Below, piece by piece: positions 40,206-47,747 of a stretch of 64,000 bases of DNA. Origin of the DNA: Paenibacillus woosongensis (lineage in GTDB: Bacteria; Bacillota; Bacilli; Paenibacillales; Paenibacillaceae); NCBI RefSeq assembly GCF_030122845.1, contig NZ_CP126084.1, positions 3,596,001 to 3,660,000 of the forward strand, in the 5' to 3' direction. Position 1 is the stretch's first letter, and every line of letters begins with the position of its first letter. The notes under the pieces are model-generated. The model had not been told where the DNA came from. It made no database searches and saw nothing but the letters and a program-made list of their open reading frames with translations. Position numbers and translations under genes: made by a program.

Positions 40206-40264
40206 GGATTTTAAAGGGAATTAAATAAGTACTGATCCAGACTATGTAATAGAGTGTTATATGC

Positions 40265-40306
40265 AAAAAGCTGACTAACGGCATTTCCCCGCTTAGCCAG
40301 CTTTTT
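40265..40306. terminator. Bidirectional terminator between AraC gene and the signalling locus
   Basis: AAAAAGCTGACTAACGG pairs with CCGCTTAGCCAGCTTTTT apart from a few mismatches. A and T runs at both ends allow it to end both the AraC transcript and the convergent receptor-propeptide transcript. Confidence 0.8.
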
Positions 40307-40331
40307 ATATGTAGCCTCAGTACAAATCAAA

Positions 40332-40448
40332 CTAGTAACCAATTCCGTGTTCTAATGTCTTTATAGGCTTGGAGTAACTTGCACTCTCTCCTAAGAGTCC
40401 TGACCCAAAACTAACAACTAGAAATAAAACCATAATCCACTTCTTCAT
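40332..40448 (-). CDS. Putative quorum-sensing propeptide (Alo/AimP-like), 38 aa
   Basis: This short gene starts at the ATG at 40448 inside the 3' end of the receptor gene, in the other frame (38-base overlap), and stops at 40332. The product begins MKKWIMVLFLVVSF: a basic start and hydrophobic export segment with a small-residue region (GSGLLGESAS) near residues 15-24. The polar C-terminal part ends KTLEHGIGY. AAGGA lies 11 bases before the ATG. Length, layout and position just after an HTH-TPR receptor are those of RRNPP propeptides. The end EHGIGY has the x-H-G-x-G-x pattern of the Paenibacillus Alo13 hexapeptide as I recall it. Expression and processing are inference. Confidence 0.75.
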   Translation of the reverse strand: MKKWIMVLFLVVSFGSGLLGESASYSKPIKTLEHGIGY

Positions 40449-41808
40449 TCTTTAACACATCCTTCATTAATTTCTTGAATTCCCCGATTTGCTCGTCTGT
40501 AGCAAATGCCCTGTACATCTCAAATATTGGAAGTAATTTCATGAAGTATTCACGATTGTTTAAATCAATAGCATATTTAATGCTAGATATTGTTTTCTCC
40601 AATCCCTCTTTAAAATCCTTTTTTCTAAAATAATATAATGATAAATGGTAACTTAACCTTAAATATCTGTTTCTAGTTACTACATTATTATAATAATTAC
40701 CAAGTTGTTCAGATAACTCTATATCTATATTGAACTGTTCAAAAACATCATCTATAAAAAAACCATGTATATTCGAAGCTTCAACAATAACCCTCAATGC
40801 AGGTAGTATTTCATAAGGATGCTTTTTTACTGATTCAATATACTCAGGAATAATGGATTGATCTCCAAGTAATACCTTTAAGTTATATGTATTCAACTTA
40901 GCAAATAACTTAAACTTCTCCACCTCTTTCTTTCCTAGCTCGTCAAGACCAACAAACCAGCTTAAATCAGCATAACAGTCTATATATTTCTGAATTTCTT
41001 CGTATCTTTTTTGAAATTGTAGTGAAACGCCCTTAATTAAATAACCTTGTCCATAATATGAAACTAAATGTCTCTCAGCTCTATAATGAAATGTCTTGGA
41101 TTGACGATATGTTCTCTCATAATGCTCATATACCGTCCTCGCAAGATTAATTAACTCATCAGCATATATTTCAGTCAATTCCCATTTTTGCATTGTAAAA
41201 TAAACATTCGTTAAATGTAGAAGTCCATCAAGCAGATAATCCTCAGGTAAACGATTCAGGTACAACTCAAATCGCGTAGCGGCAATCAAATTAGCTTCCG
41301 TATCATCCCCCAAAGATAACCGAAACAACCTATAATGGCTGATGGCCAACCGCTCGGAATGCTGATACTTCTCACTCTCAATCACAACATTGTAAAATAA
41401 GCGGGATTCCTCGCGCAGCCCTTTCTCGTAAAGCTCCTCGCCAATTTCAAAAATCATCGGGATATAGCTCAAATTTTCTACGATGCGATCAAGCACCTCT
41501 TGAATGCATTCGGTCTGTCCCACTTCGGCGCAACGGAGCAGAAAGGCCTTGACTCTTCTGCGGTTCGGTTGATCCGAATCCACGCATTCATTGACGTATA
41601 ACGGATAATAGTGCCCTTCCGGCTGTTCCAGGGCTTCCGTTATTAAATCCAGTTGCCGGATGGCAATCGGCTTGGGAGGGTTACCGTTGAGAATGGCGCT
41701 GAGTGTCCCGCGATTTATTCCCGAGCGGCTGGCAAAGCTGCTCAAAGAGTAGCCTCTGCGCTCAAGCTCTTGTTCGATAACAGAACGGATCGTGGGTTCA
41801 TTCGTCAT
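40411..41808 (-). CDS. HTH-TPR regulator, probable RRNPP (AimR/AloR-like) pheromone receptor
   Basis: The 465-residue protein has an N-terminal XRE-type HTH (about 18-60; SLSSFASRSGINRGTLSAIL, then NGNPPKPIAIRQLDLITEAL). A linker with FLLRCAEVGQTECIQEVLDR precedes a long all-helical TPR-like region to the end. This is the architecture of RRNPP receptors that bind re-imported peptides; the HTH and linker look like the AimR-like AloR group of Paenibacillus. The ATG at 41808 follows GAAGGAGG. The C-terminal two thirds are much AT-richer than the N-terminus. A propeptide gene overlaps its 3' end. The target genes are unknown. Confidence 0.8.
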   Translation of the reverse strand: MTNEPTIRSVIEQELERRGYSLSSFASRSGINRGTLSAILNGNPPKPIAIRQLDLITEALEQPEGHYYPLYVNECVDSDQPNRRRVKAFLLRCAEVGQTECIQEVLDRIVENLSYIPMIFEIGEELYEKGLREESRLFYNVVIESEKYQHSERLAISHYRLFRLSLGDDTEANLIAATRFELYLNRLPEDYLLDGLLHLTNVYFTMQKWELTEIYADELINLARTVYEHYERTYRQSKTFHYRAERHLVSYYGQGYLIKGVSLQFQKRYEEIQKYIDCYADLSWFVGLDELGKKEVEKFKLFAKLNTYNLKVLLGDQSIIPEYIESVKKHPYEILPALRVIVEASNIHGFFIDDVFEQFNIDIELSEQLGNYYNNVVTRNRYLRLSYHLSLYYFRKKDFKEGLEKTISSIKYAIDLNNREYFMKLLPIFEMYRAFATDEQIGEFKKLMKDVLKNEEVDYGFISSC

Positions 41809-41863: not shown

Positions 41864-41887
41864 ATTTAATCTCCTATATTTTTACAC

Positions 41888-41916
41888 ATTATACGAAAAT
41901 ATGAACTGGTGGTCAA
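41888..41916 (-). promoter_or_regulatory. Sigma-A promoter of the receptor-propeptide unit
   Basis: On the minus strand TTGACC (41911-41916) and a consensus TATAAT (41888-41893) are separated by 17 bases. Confidence 0.85.
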
Positions 41917-46022: not shown

Positions 46023-47747
46023 TTAAACTTCTAGAATAGAAGGCATAATATGCGGTGCTCGGCCTACTTCTTTCATGAAAAATCTGCGCATGATCCGGTG
46101 CGTCGACCGAACCCAGTCGGAGCGATTATACGCCTGGCGCTCTCCCTGCTTCGACAGGTTCCGCTTGAGCGACATTTCCGCACGCCGCAGCAGCGGACGG
46201 GCATCCTGCATGTAGACGAAGCCGCGGGTCACGATATCCGGTCCGGCAAGAATTTGCCCCGTCTCGGCGTCAATGGTCATAACGACGATGACGATGCCCT
46301 CTCTAGCCAATTCGCCCCGCTCTTCCACGAGCTCGTCCTCATAGGTTCTCATCTCTCCATTGCTAATAAAGACGTCACCCGACGGAATAGACCGGCCTTT
46401 CTTGGCGCGGTTGCGATAGACGGACAGCGTATCTCCCACATTCATCACGAAGATGCGGTCTTCCGGCAGCCCCGTCTGCATCGCCAGCTTGCGATGAGCG
46501 AGCAGCATGCGGTATTCCCCGTGAATCGGAATAAAATACTTCGGGCGGATCATGCTGAGCATAAGCTTTAAATCCTCCCGGTTGCCGTGGCCCGAAGTAT
46601 GGATATCGATAATGGAGCCGTAAATAACATTGGCGCCTGCCCGCATGAGCATATCGATGCTGCGGTTAATATTCTGCTCATTGCCCGGGATCGGCGAAGA
46701 GGAGAAAATAACCGAGTCCCCCGGGTAAATCTGTACGGAGCGGTGCGCCCCGGAAGCGATCCGGCTCAGCGCGGCGTTAGGTTCGCCCTGGCTGCCTGTA
46801 CAAACGATCAATACCCGGTTATCCTCATAACGGTCAATATGCTTCACGTCGATAAGCATGCCGTCGGGCACGCGGATATATCCGAGCTCCTGCCCGATTG
46901 TAAATACCTTCTCCATACTGCGGCCAATGACGGCGATTTTGCGGTCGCACTGCATCGCGGCCTCCACCACCTGCTGCAGGCGGTGCACGTTGGAAGCAAA
47001 CGTTGCGAACAAGATGCGTCCCTCGCATTGCTTGAACGATTCAAGAATCGCATTGCCAACCTTGCGTTCGGAAGGAGTAAAGCCTTCCCGTTCGCTATTC
47101 GTGCTGTCAGCCAGCAGCGCCAGAACGCCCTCGCTCCCGACGCTCGCCATCTTGGACAGATCGGCGGGCTTGTCCTCCGGCGTGAAATCAAATTTGAAAT
47201 CCCCGGTATGTACAACCGGGCCGTATGGCGTGTCTACGACGACCCCGAAGGCGTCGGGAATGCTGTGCGTCGTTCTGAAGAAATGAACGGCAAGATGCTG
47301 GAACGCATACCTGTCATTCTCATGGAACACATGCAGCTCGGCTTGCCCGAGCAGACGGTATTCCTCCAGCTTGGCCCGAACGAGGCCAATCGTCAGCGGA
47401 CCGCCGTAAATCGGGATTTGCAGCTGCCGGAGCAGAAACGGTATGGCTCCGATGTGATCCTCATGTCCATGTGTAATAAACAGGCCTTTGATTTTGTGCT
47501 TGTTCGCAACCAGATAACTCATGTCGGGAATGATATAATCGATTCCAGATAGGCGCGAGTCGGGGAACTTCAAACCCGCATCAATGATAATGAGTTCATT
47601 TTTGTACTCCACGGCGTACATATTTTTACCGATCTCACCAAGGCCGCCAAGCGCGAAAATTCGAACCGGCGGGGGAGACGATTTAGGACGGCGCTGTGAC
47701 TTCGCTGTCTTAGCAGTCTTCGCGGTTTTGCTAGCTTCTTCATTCAT
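46023..47747 (-). CDS. Ribonuclease J
   Basis: This metallo-beta-lactamase/beta-CASP ribonuclease has 5' exonuclease and endonuclease roles in mRNA turnover. Motifs are FALGGLGEIGKNMYAVE, the metal motif THGHEDHIGA, RTTHSIPDAFGV, and CTGSQGEPNAALSRIASG of the beta-CASP domain. The first 28 residues are a basic tail with three KTA repeats not needed for the fold. Firmicutes often have two or more RNase J paralogues, and I cannot assign rnjA or rnjB from sequence alone. Confidence 0.93.
   Translation of the reverse strand: MNEEASKTAKTAKTAKSQRRPKSSPPPVRIFALGGLGEIGKNMYAVEYKNELIIIDAGLKFPDSRLSGIDYIIPDMSYLVANKHKIKGLFITHGHEDHIGAIPFLLRQLQIPIYGGPLTIGLVRAKLEEYRLLGQAELHVFHENDRYAFQHLAVHFFRTTHSIPDAFGVVVDTPYGPVVHTGDFKFDFTPEDKPADLSKMASVGSEGVLALLADSTNSEREGFTPSERKVGNAILESFKQCEGRILFATFASNVHRLQQVVEAAMQCDRKIAVIGRSMEKVFTIGQELGYIRVPDGMLIDVKHIDRYEDNRVLIVCTGSQGEPNAALSRIASGAHRSVQIYPGDSVIFSSSPIPGNEQNINRSIDMLMRAGANVIYGSIIDIHTSGHGNREDLKLMLSMIRPKYFIPIHGEYRMLLAHRKLAMQTGLPEDRIFVMNVGDTLSVYRNRAKKGRSIPSGDVFISNGEMRTYEDELVEERGELAREGIVIVVMTIDAETGQILAGPDIVTRGFVYMQDARPLLRRAEMSLKRNLSKQGERQAYNRSDWVRSTHRIMRRFFMKEVGRAPHIMPSILEV

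Follow-up and report, generated by a model that had tools for sequence, protein, structure and literature searches.

A stretch of 64,000 nucleotides of Paenibacillus woosongensis DNA (hereafter the window) carries a receptor gene and a small overlapping gene that very probably (about 87%, in our estimate) constitute an Alo-type quorum-sensing system of the RRNPP superfamily. The genes, their family, the selection acting on the small frame, the conserved promoter sequence and geometry and the divergence of the C-terminal half of the receptor were read from the sequence, and the working of the system is modelled mostly on Alo13. In this model, aloR and aloP would be transcribed together from a promoter upstream of aloR, and aloP would be translated from a start within the end of aloR. 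With its basic, hydrophobic N-terminus the 38-aa product would be exported; cleavage would then release a C-terminal peptide, most probably EHGIGY, for re-import by an oligopeptide permease. Binding of the peptide by the TPR-like C-terminal half of AloR would change the control of DNA by AloR and, by analogy with the account of Alo13 in PMC7425212, would switch AloR off. An importer of the kind used in the RRNPP superfamily may be provided by four SBP_bac_5 (oligopeptide-binding) genes found in the genome.

An earlier sequence-only reading had described an HTH-TPR receptor gene overlapped over 38 bases by a 38-codon frame, whose product starts with basic residues, continues with a hydrophobic segment and ends in EHGIGY; the ORFs and their coordinates bear this out (Table 1). 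The ribosome binding site that it assigned to the small gene is present but weak. Among 13 other distinct orthologues, GGAGG occurs within 20 bases upstream of the aloP start in 8 and G-rich runs in 5. At 38 aa, the product lies within the 32-50 aa sought for a short ORF with a hydrophobic N-terminus downstream of or overlapping the receptor gene. No family matching the propeptide was found in Pfam, NCBIfam and PHROG scans, and inspection of the 38-aa sequence revealed no clear cleavage site. We take EHGIGY as the most likely mature signal from the processing of AloP13 and the constraint on the tail described below.

Table 1. Features of the aloR/aloP locus (positions in the window)
Feature	Position	Strand	Basis
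aloR-type receptor	40411..41808	-	ORF, 465 aa; HTH at the N-terminus followed by TPR-like repeats, all helical
HTH region, receptor residues ~10-60	41629..41781	-	HTH_3 match, profile hits, model helices
aloP-type propeptide gene	40332..40448	-	ORF, 38 aa, product MKKWIMVLFLVVSFGSGLLGESASYSKPIKTLEHGIGY
Overlap of aloR 3' end and aloP 5' end, 38 nt, different frames	40411..40448	-	ORF coordinates
EHGIGY codons, presumed mature signal	40335..40352	-	Inferred from AloP13 processing (SHGRGG) and tail constraint
Weak ribosome binding site AAGGA, 11 nt upstream of aloP ATG	40460..40464	-	Sequence
aloR promoter TTGACC-17-TATAAT	41888..41916	-	11/12 consensus matches; conserved in aligned loci
Conserved block TATAATGTGTAAAAATATAGGAGA, candidate operator or leader element	41870..41893	-	Alignment; function inferred
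Terminator-like hairpin downstream of aloP	40264..40307	-	-23 kcal/mol for 40258-40312, z -5.26

The receptor shares 46% identity with AloR13 of P. polymyxa over residues 1-456 of 465. In PMC10075063, in the parts available, a receptor cluster counts as known when it matches 80% or more of a reference AloR at 30% identity or more, and the window receptor exceeds this threshold. The peptide of AloR13, SHGRGG, was tested experimentally (Voichek 2020; PMC7425212), and the sequence-only reading had given it correctly. A pattern search for SHGRGG matched 56 of 394 genomes, mostly by chance; when 30 matches were read as loci, an Alo-type receptor stood immediately upstream of the peptide in 4, one of them in the P. 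polymyxa type strain. Since the AloP13 pro-peptide SYFHNITIGNGSQITVSSHGRGG, as printed in PMC7425212, is the end of an ORF at the P. polymyxa type-strain locus, the receptor at that locus is AloR13, and its neighbour in the type strain is presumably the AloR14 of the same paper. Pfam, NCBIfam and PHROG scans gave nothing that names the window receptor except weak HTH-type matches. Its N-terminal HTH is indicated by an HTH_3 score of 22.3 bits in Pfam, marginally below the 23-bit cut-off, by a profile search of the PDB that matched HTH regulatory proteins (E 1.4e-4) and by the helices of the model. Because searches of PDB sequences, with the single sequence and with a profile, returned no RRNPP receptor (AimR, Rap, NprR or PlcR), the family assignment rests on the comparison with AloR13.

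An AF2 model of the receptor built from 13 sequences (pLDDT 87.8, pTM 0.81) is helical throughout, with the C-terminal TPR-like domain expected of an AloR (Z up to 16.7). In VIA-align, it was matched with NprR (Z 16.3, rmsd 6.4, 296 residues aligned), RapI (Z 15.8, rmsd 4.2, 260 aligned) and phi3T Rap (Z 14.8, rmsd 6.1, 281 aligned), the top row being an uncharacterised TPR protein (Z 16.7) and unrelated TPR proteins being interspersed with the RRNPP rows. With Foldseek against the PDB, LGN was the only match under E 0.001, and AimR chains came at ranks 33 and 40 (E 0.017 and 0.024). A fold search of a viral library gave one strong match, S5MC02, which carries no name. The modelled fold agrees with that of an RRNPP receptor and is no proof of it; fold searches do not tell TPR proteins apart.

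In a tree of 44 receptors (drawn with midpoint rooting), the clade of the window comprises 13 rows with support 100/100. It falls within a 99/95 branch together with AloR13, the neighbour of AloR13, Brevibacillus plasmid receptors, a Brevibacillus phage receptor and four receptors of the genus, and the other P. polymyxa AloRs lie outside this branch. A scan of named genomes for the receptor retrieved P. woosongensis 12CR55 (79%), the nearest named locus, and a distant MAG (29%); the host thus shares with P. polymyxa the Paenibacillaceae, the family in which AloR/AloP pairs are expected. The identity with AloR13 and the 99/95 branch support the earlier proposal that the pair consists of an RRNPP-type receptor and a propeptide gene of the AloR/AloP group. 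To call it a distinct member of that group was an overstatement: the receptor sits inside the Alo family, near AloR13, and the pair is not a new kind of system.

What is new, judging by the receptor comparisons, is a separate orthologous Alo group. A receptor homologue at E 1e-60 or better was found in all 40 genus genomes, the window's own included, and one at 55% identity or more in 15 of the 40, again counting its own; this is the reach of the group. The pair had been called probably undescribed, which may hold for the group as an orthologue group, but not for the Alo family, already known from Paenibacillus. The group is not named in the passages and listings of the Alo literature covered; it may be entered in the species tables that supplement PMC7425212 and PMC10075063. 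A literature search for five hexapeptides returned SHGRGG alone, in the available text of PMC7425212. The pair would add to the known systems a conserved Alo group that we have not seen described for P. polymyxa in the sources consulted.

The small frame is retained in all 16 locus records of the group (receptor identity 55-100%), that is in 15/15 loci, that of the window among them. As L005 and L009 lie on one contig and the aloP of L009 is that of L007, the 16 records represent 15 loci and 14 distinct aloP sequences. Throughout this group (the window as L001, together with L005 and L007-L020), the frame encodes 37-38 aa and its start position is constant. The aloP start lies 35 nt upstream of the receptor stop codon in 12 of the 14 distinct orthologues, giving the 38-nt overlap, and 5 nt upstream in the other two (L007 and L008), giving an overlap of 8 nt. 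In L007, L008 and L009, the receptor is about 10 codons shorter, so that the overlap has shrunk to 8 nt with the aloP start and frame unchanged. The small frame is kept at this 8-nt overlap, and therefore the overlap does not hold it open. The conserved frame that had been proposed as a check was in this way recovered in every relative of the group. Among 19 more distant receptor loci, a propeptide-like ORF was found in 8 (L003, L004, L006, L021-L023 and, less surely, L025 and L034), beginning 151-208 nt past the receptor stop in L021-L023, with no overlap; a convincing one was absent from the remaining 11.

The pN/pS values come from counts pooled over pairs, without significance testing and with pS near saturation (0.64-0.68), so that the ratios are rough ones: in the non-overlapping part, the aloP frame gave 0.51 for the 14 distinct sequences and 0.41 for the five closest, against 1.13-1.58 for the two other frames. 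These two frames are interrupted by stops in 11/14 and 6/14 sequences, and the aloP frame in none. Selection acting only in the receptor frame had been named as a result that would speak against the small gene; in the non-overlapping part, pN/pS fell below 1 in the aloP frame alone. On this evidence the small frame is a real gene, with purifying selection confined to its own frame. Within it the linker is loosely constrained (0.75, and 0.90 in the far nine sequences), and the last seven codons reach 0.14 in the far nine and 0.41 in the close five.

This constrained C-terminal tail bears on the rival explanation that survives best, in which the small gene encodes a membrane-active or regulatory small protein (type I toxin-like, or a leader peptide) rather than a signal precursor. 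The product is indeed short, with a basic start and a hydrophobic core, and its secretion is only predicted. However, in addition to the constraint on the tail, similar ORFs follow many Alo receptors, and fragments of nine AloP peptides were detected in the medium of P. polymyxa according to the part of PMC7425212 available, so that we regard this explanation as improbable.

The tails themselves differ between relatives. Six close genomes carry five tails, EHGIGY in the window, EHGGGY in two genomes, EHGAGT, DHGGGF and EHGWN, and the nine other loci carry ENGVGG (eight) or TNGVGG (one). The receptors of the close genomes with differing tails are 81-92% identical over their N-half. We compared the N-half (residues 1-230) and the C-half (231-454) over the 105 receptor pairs of the 15 loci. 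At an N-half identity of at least 0.80, the C-half identity was 0.656-0.741 for the 14 pairs with different tails and 0.790-1.000 for the 16 pairs with the same tail; the pairs are non-independent, the same-tail ones all but one come from one clade, and the contrast mostly compares two clades. It fades below 0.80: for 12 same-tail pairs with N-half identities of 0.75-0.80, the C-half identity was 0.671-0.799, at most 0.721 in 11 of them. The greater C-half divergence between receptors with differing tails would fit a peptide and a binding pocket changing together. As the mean dN/dS of the receptor is low (0.14, window and 12 relatives), we do not claim positive selection. The putative radiation of the signal across close genomes is interesting in itself, and the six close genomes, alike in the N-half and differing in their signals, offer natural chimeras in which receptor-peptide specificity could be tested.

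The receptor might also answer another peptide, encoded by a different aloP in its own genome or in neighbours, the overlapping gene then having some other partner. The genome holds three further AloR paralogues, two of which (L003 and L004) have propeptide-like ORFs with the tails LIHGLGG and FLQHGA, and cross-regulation among Alo systems has been reported (PMC7425212, parts available). Against this stand the pairing of receptor and propeptide in every one of the locus records and a C-half divergence that tracks the tail where the N-half is at least 0.80 identical, and we give this arrangement marginally less credit than the preceding one. An origin of the small ORF by chance, across and past the receptor 3' end, can be practically dismissed: simulation of this locus yielded an ORF like it (30-60 aa, with a basic start and a hydrophobic segment, beginning at most 100 nt from the receptor stop) in 1.3% of 5000 versions, yet its presence in all 16 records, the selection in its frame alone and its persistence at the 8-nt overlap contradict such a reading. 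Counting the window, L003 and L004, the genome may possess three Alo signals. The third paralogous AloR (G000:C1:451868-453112, L002), behind which no propeptide ORF was found, is followed by a Spo0E-family gene at 453341-453469.

Promoter, neighbourhood and dN/dS comparisons covered the window and 12 relatives, leaving aside L009 and L015. As the promoter scan overall returned 9 sites against 6.5 in shuffles, we put weight on conservation: TATAAT is found in 13/13 aligned loci and TTGACC in 12/13 (TGGACC in L083), and GTGTAAAAATA follows the -10 box in 12/13. The 24 bases of the conserved block, at the aloR -10 box and downstream of it, hardly vary among the 13 aligned loci, although the flanks diverge. 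At up to 3 mismatches, the block has a single site in the genome, at aloR itself, and in the 130 bases upstream of 28 other Alo receptors nothing close was found (best 8/24 mismatches). The hairpin after aloP is not among the sites of a simple terminator scan, and no unusual RNA fold was detected in the aloR/aloP overlap region (z -0.26).

The gene following aloP is convergent and AraC-type; this name and those of the other neighbours come from reading of the sequence only. In the window and four close loci, the next two genes, AraC-type and GH127-like, are common to all, and a GH51-like gene accompanies them in at least three of these four loci; a sugar-kinase-like gene occurs in several far loci. 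Upstream of aloR, eight far-clade loci (L081-L088) have an RNase J-like gene, within about 110-135 bases in seven of them and at about 2 kb, with another ORF between, in L086; in the window (46023-47747), three genes (peptidase-like, transporter-like and peptidase-like) stand between the RNase J-like gene and aloR. No conserved downstream target gene was found in the window and the 12 relatives. Nor is there a Spo0E-like gene downstream of aloP, the nearest of the five Spo0E-family matches in the genome being about 100 kb away; such a gene is a feature of some Alo members only and does not define them. Since a hairpin and a convergent gene follow aloP, the target of AloR is most likely its own expression or unlinked genes.

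A wider history can be sketched only tentatively, and we are inclined to doubt it as a whole. An ancient Alo channel, passed on vertically and originally next to an RNase J-like gene, may have kept ENGVGG or TNGVGG in one branch of the genus, while five signals may have radiated among six sister genomes with the receptor C-half changing in step. This would make a natural series of pherotype changes, with an output at the promoter of AloR itself and at unlinked genes, and not at Spo0E.

The closest known system is AloR13/AloP13 of P. polymyxa ATCC 842, whose receptor is homologous over its full length (46%) and whose AloP likewise overlaps the aloR 3' end and has a basic start, a hydrophobic segment and an HG-containing C-terminus. 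It differs by an overlap of 50 nt (start at -47) instead of 38 nt, by the tail SHGRGG instead of EHGIGY and by a spo0E-like gene downstream, where the window has the convergent AraC-type gene. Plasmid receptors of Brevibacillus laterosporus LMG 15441 match 97% of the receptor at identities of 41% (pBRLA33) and 39% (pBRLA07) and similarly have overlapping propeptide frames, with the tails EHGVGG and GHGMGG. Unlike here, these AloR-type receptors are plasmid-borne, and a Spo0E-family gene lies downstream on pBRLA07; for this strain, the available part of PMC10075063 reports one plasmid-borne AloR-AloP system. With AimR/AimP of Bacillus phages, Rap, NprR and PlcR, the pair shares the layout, the presumed mechanism and the helical-repeat fold, and the available text of PMC12700828 assigns AloR and AimR to one structural clan. 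In contrast with the AimR phage systems, the locus lies on a 5.29-Mb contig, and no phage genes were recognised among the neighbours read.

The sequence-only reading had presented the propeptide gene as hidden in the receptor's 3' end. This says too much: short ORFs overlapping the aloR 3' end were among those searched for in 2020, as the available part of PMC7425212 states. A further 40 loci were read as well, 30 of them in four related genomes and 10 on viral contigs. We accepted 22 propeptide-like ORFs and dropped that of L111 (downstream, without the usual tail); 17 loci had no ORF, some of these loci being truncated where the stretch ends. The start lies inside the receptor gene in 22/22 accepted pairs, and a start exactly at -35 (38-base overlap) is possible in 15/22, orthologues from the four related genomes making these pairs non-independent. 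The annotated overlap is 35 bases in a plasmid pair of the P. polymyxa type strain. An aloP that overlaps the end of aloR is thus a common layout in the loci read and not a special one, and translating every frame near the stop codon of the receptor can recover such overlapping aloP genes. Tails containing HG are found repeatedly (SHGRGG, EHGVGG, IHGLGG), although several paralogues have others (DQQGGA, VTIGGF).

Some of the loci read have particular arrangements. In the P. polymyxa type strain, one receptor (L121) is followed by two tandem propeptide-like ORFs with the tails DQHGGA and ATHGGA. The Brevibacillus phage SecTim467 (KT151957.1, L068) encodes an AloR-type receptor with a gene annotated Spo0E just upstream, and the annotated ORF overlapping the end of this receptor has no hydrophobic start. 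Finally, on the Paenibacillus larvae plasmid pPLP3 (L070), the annotation splits an AloR-like gene into two ORFs; downstream lies a propeptide-like frame with the tail EHGADD, and a Spo0E-family gene is nearby.
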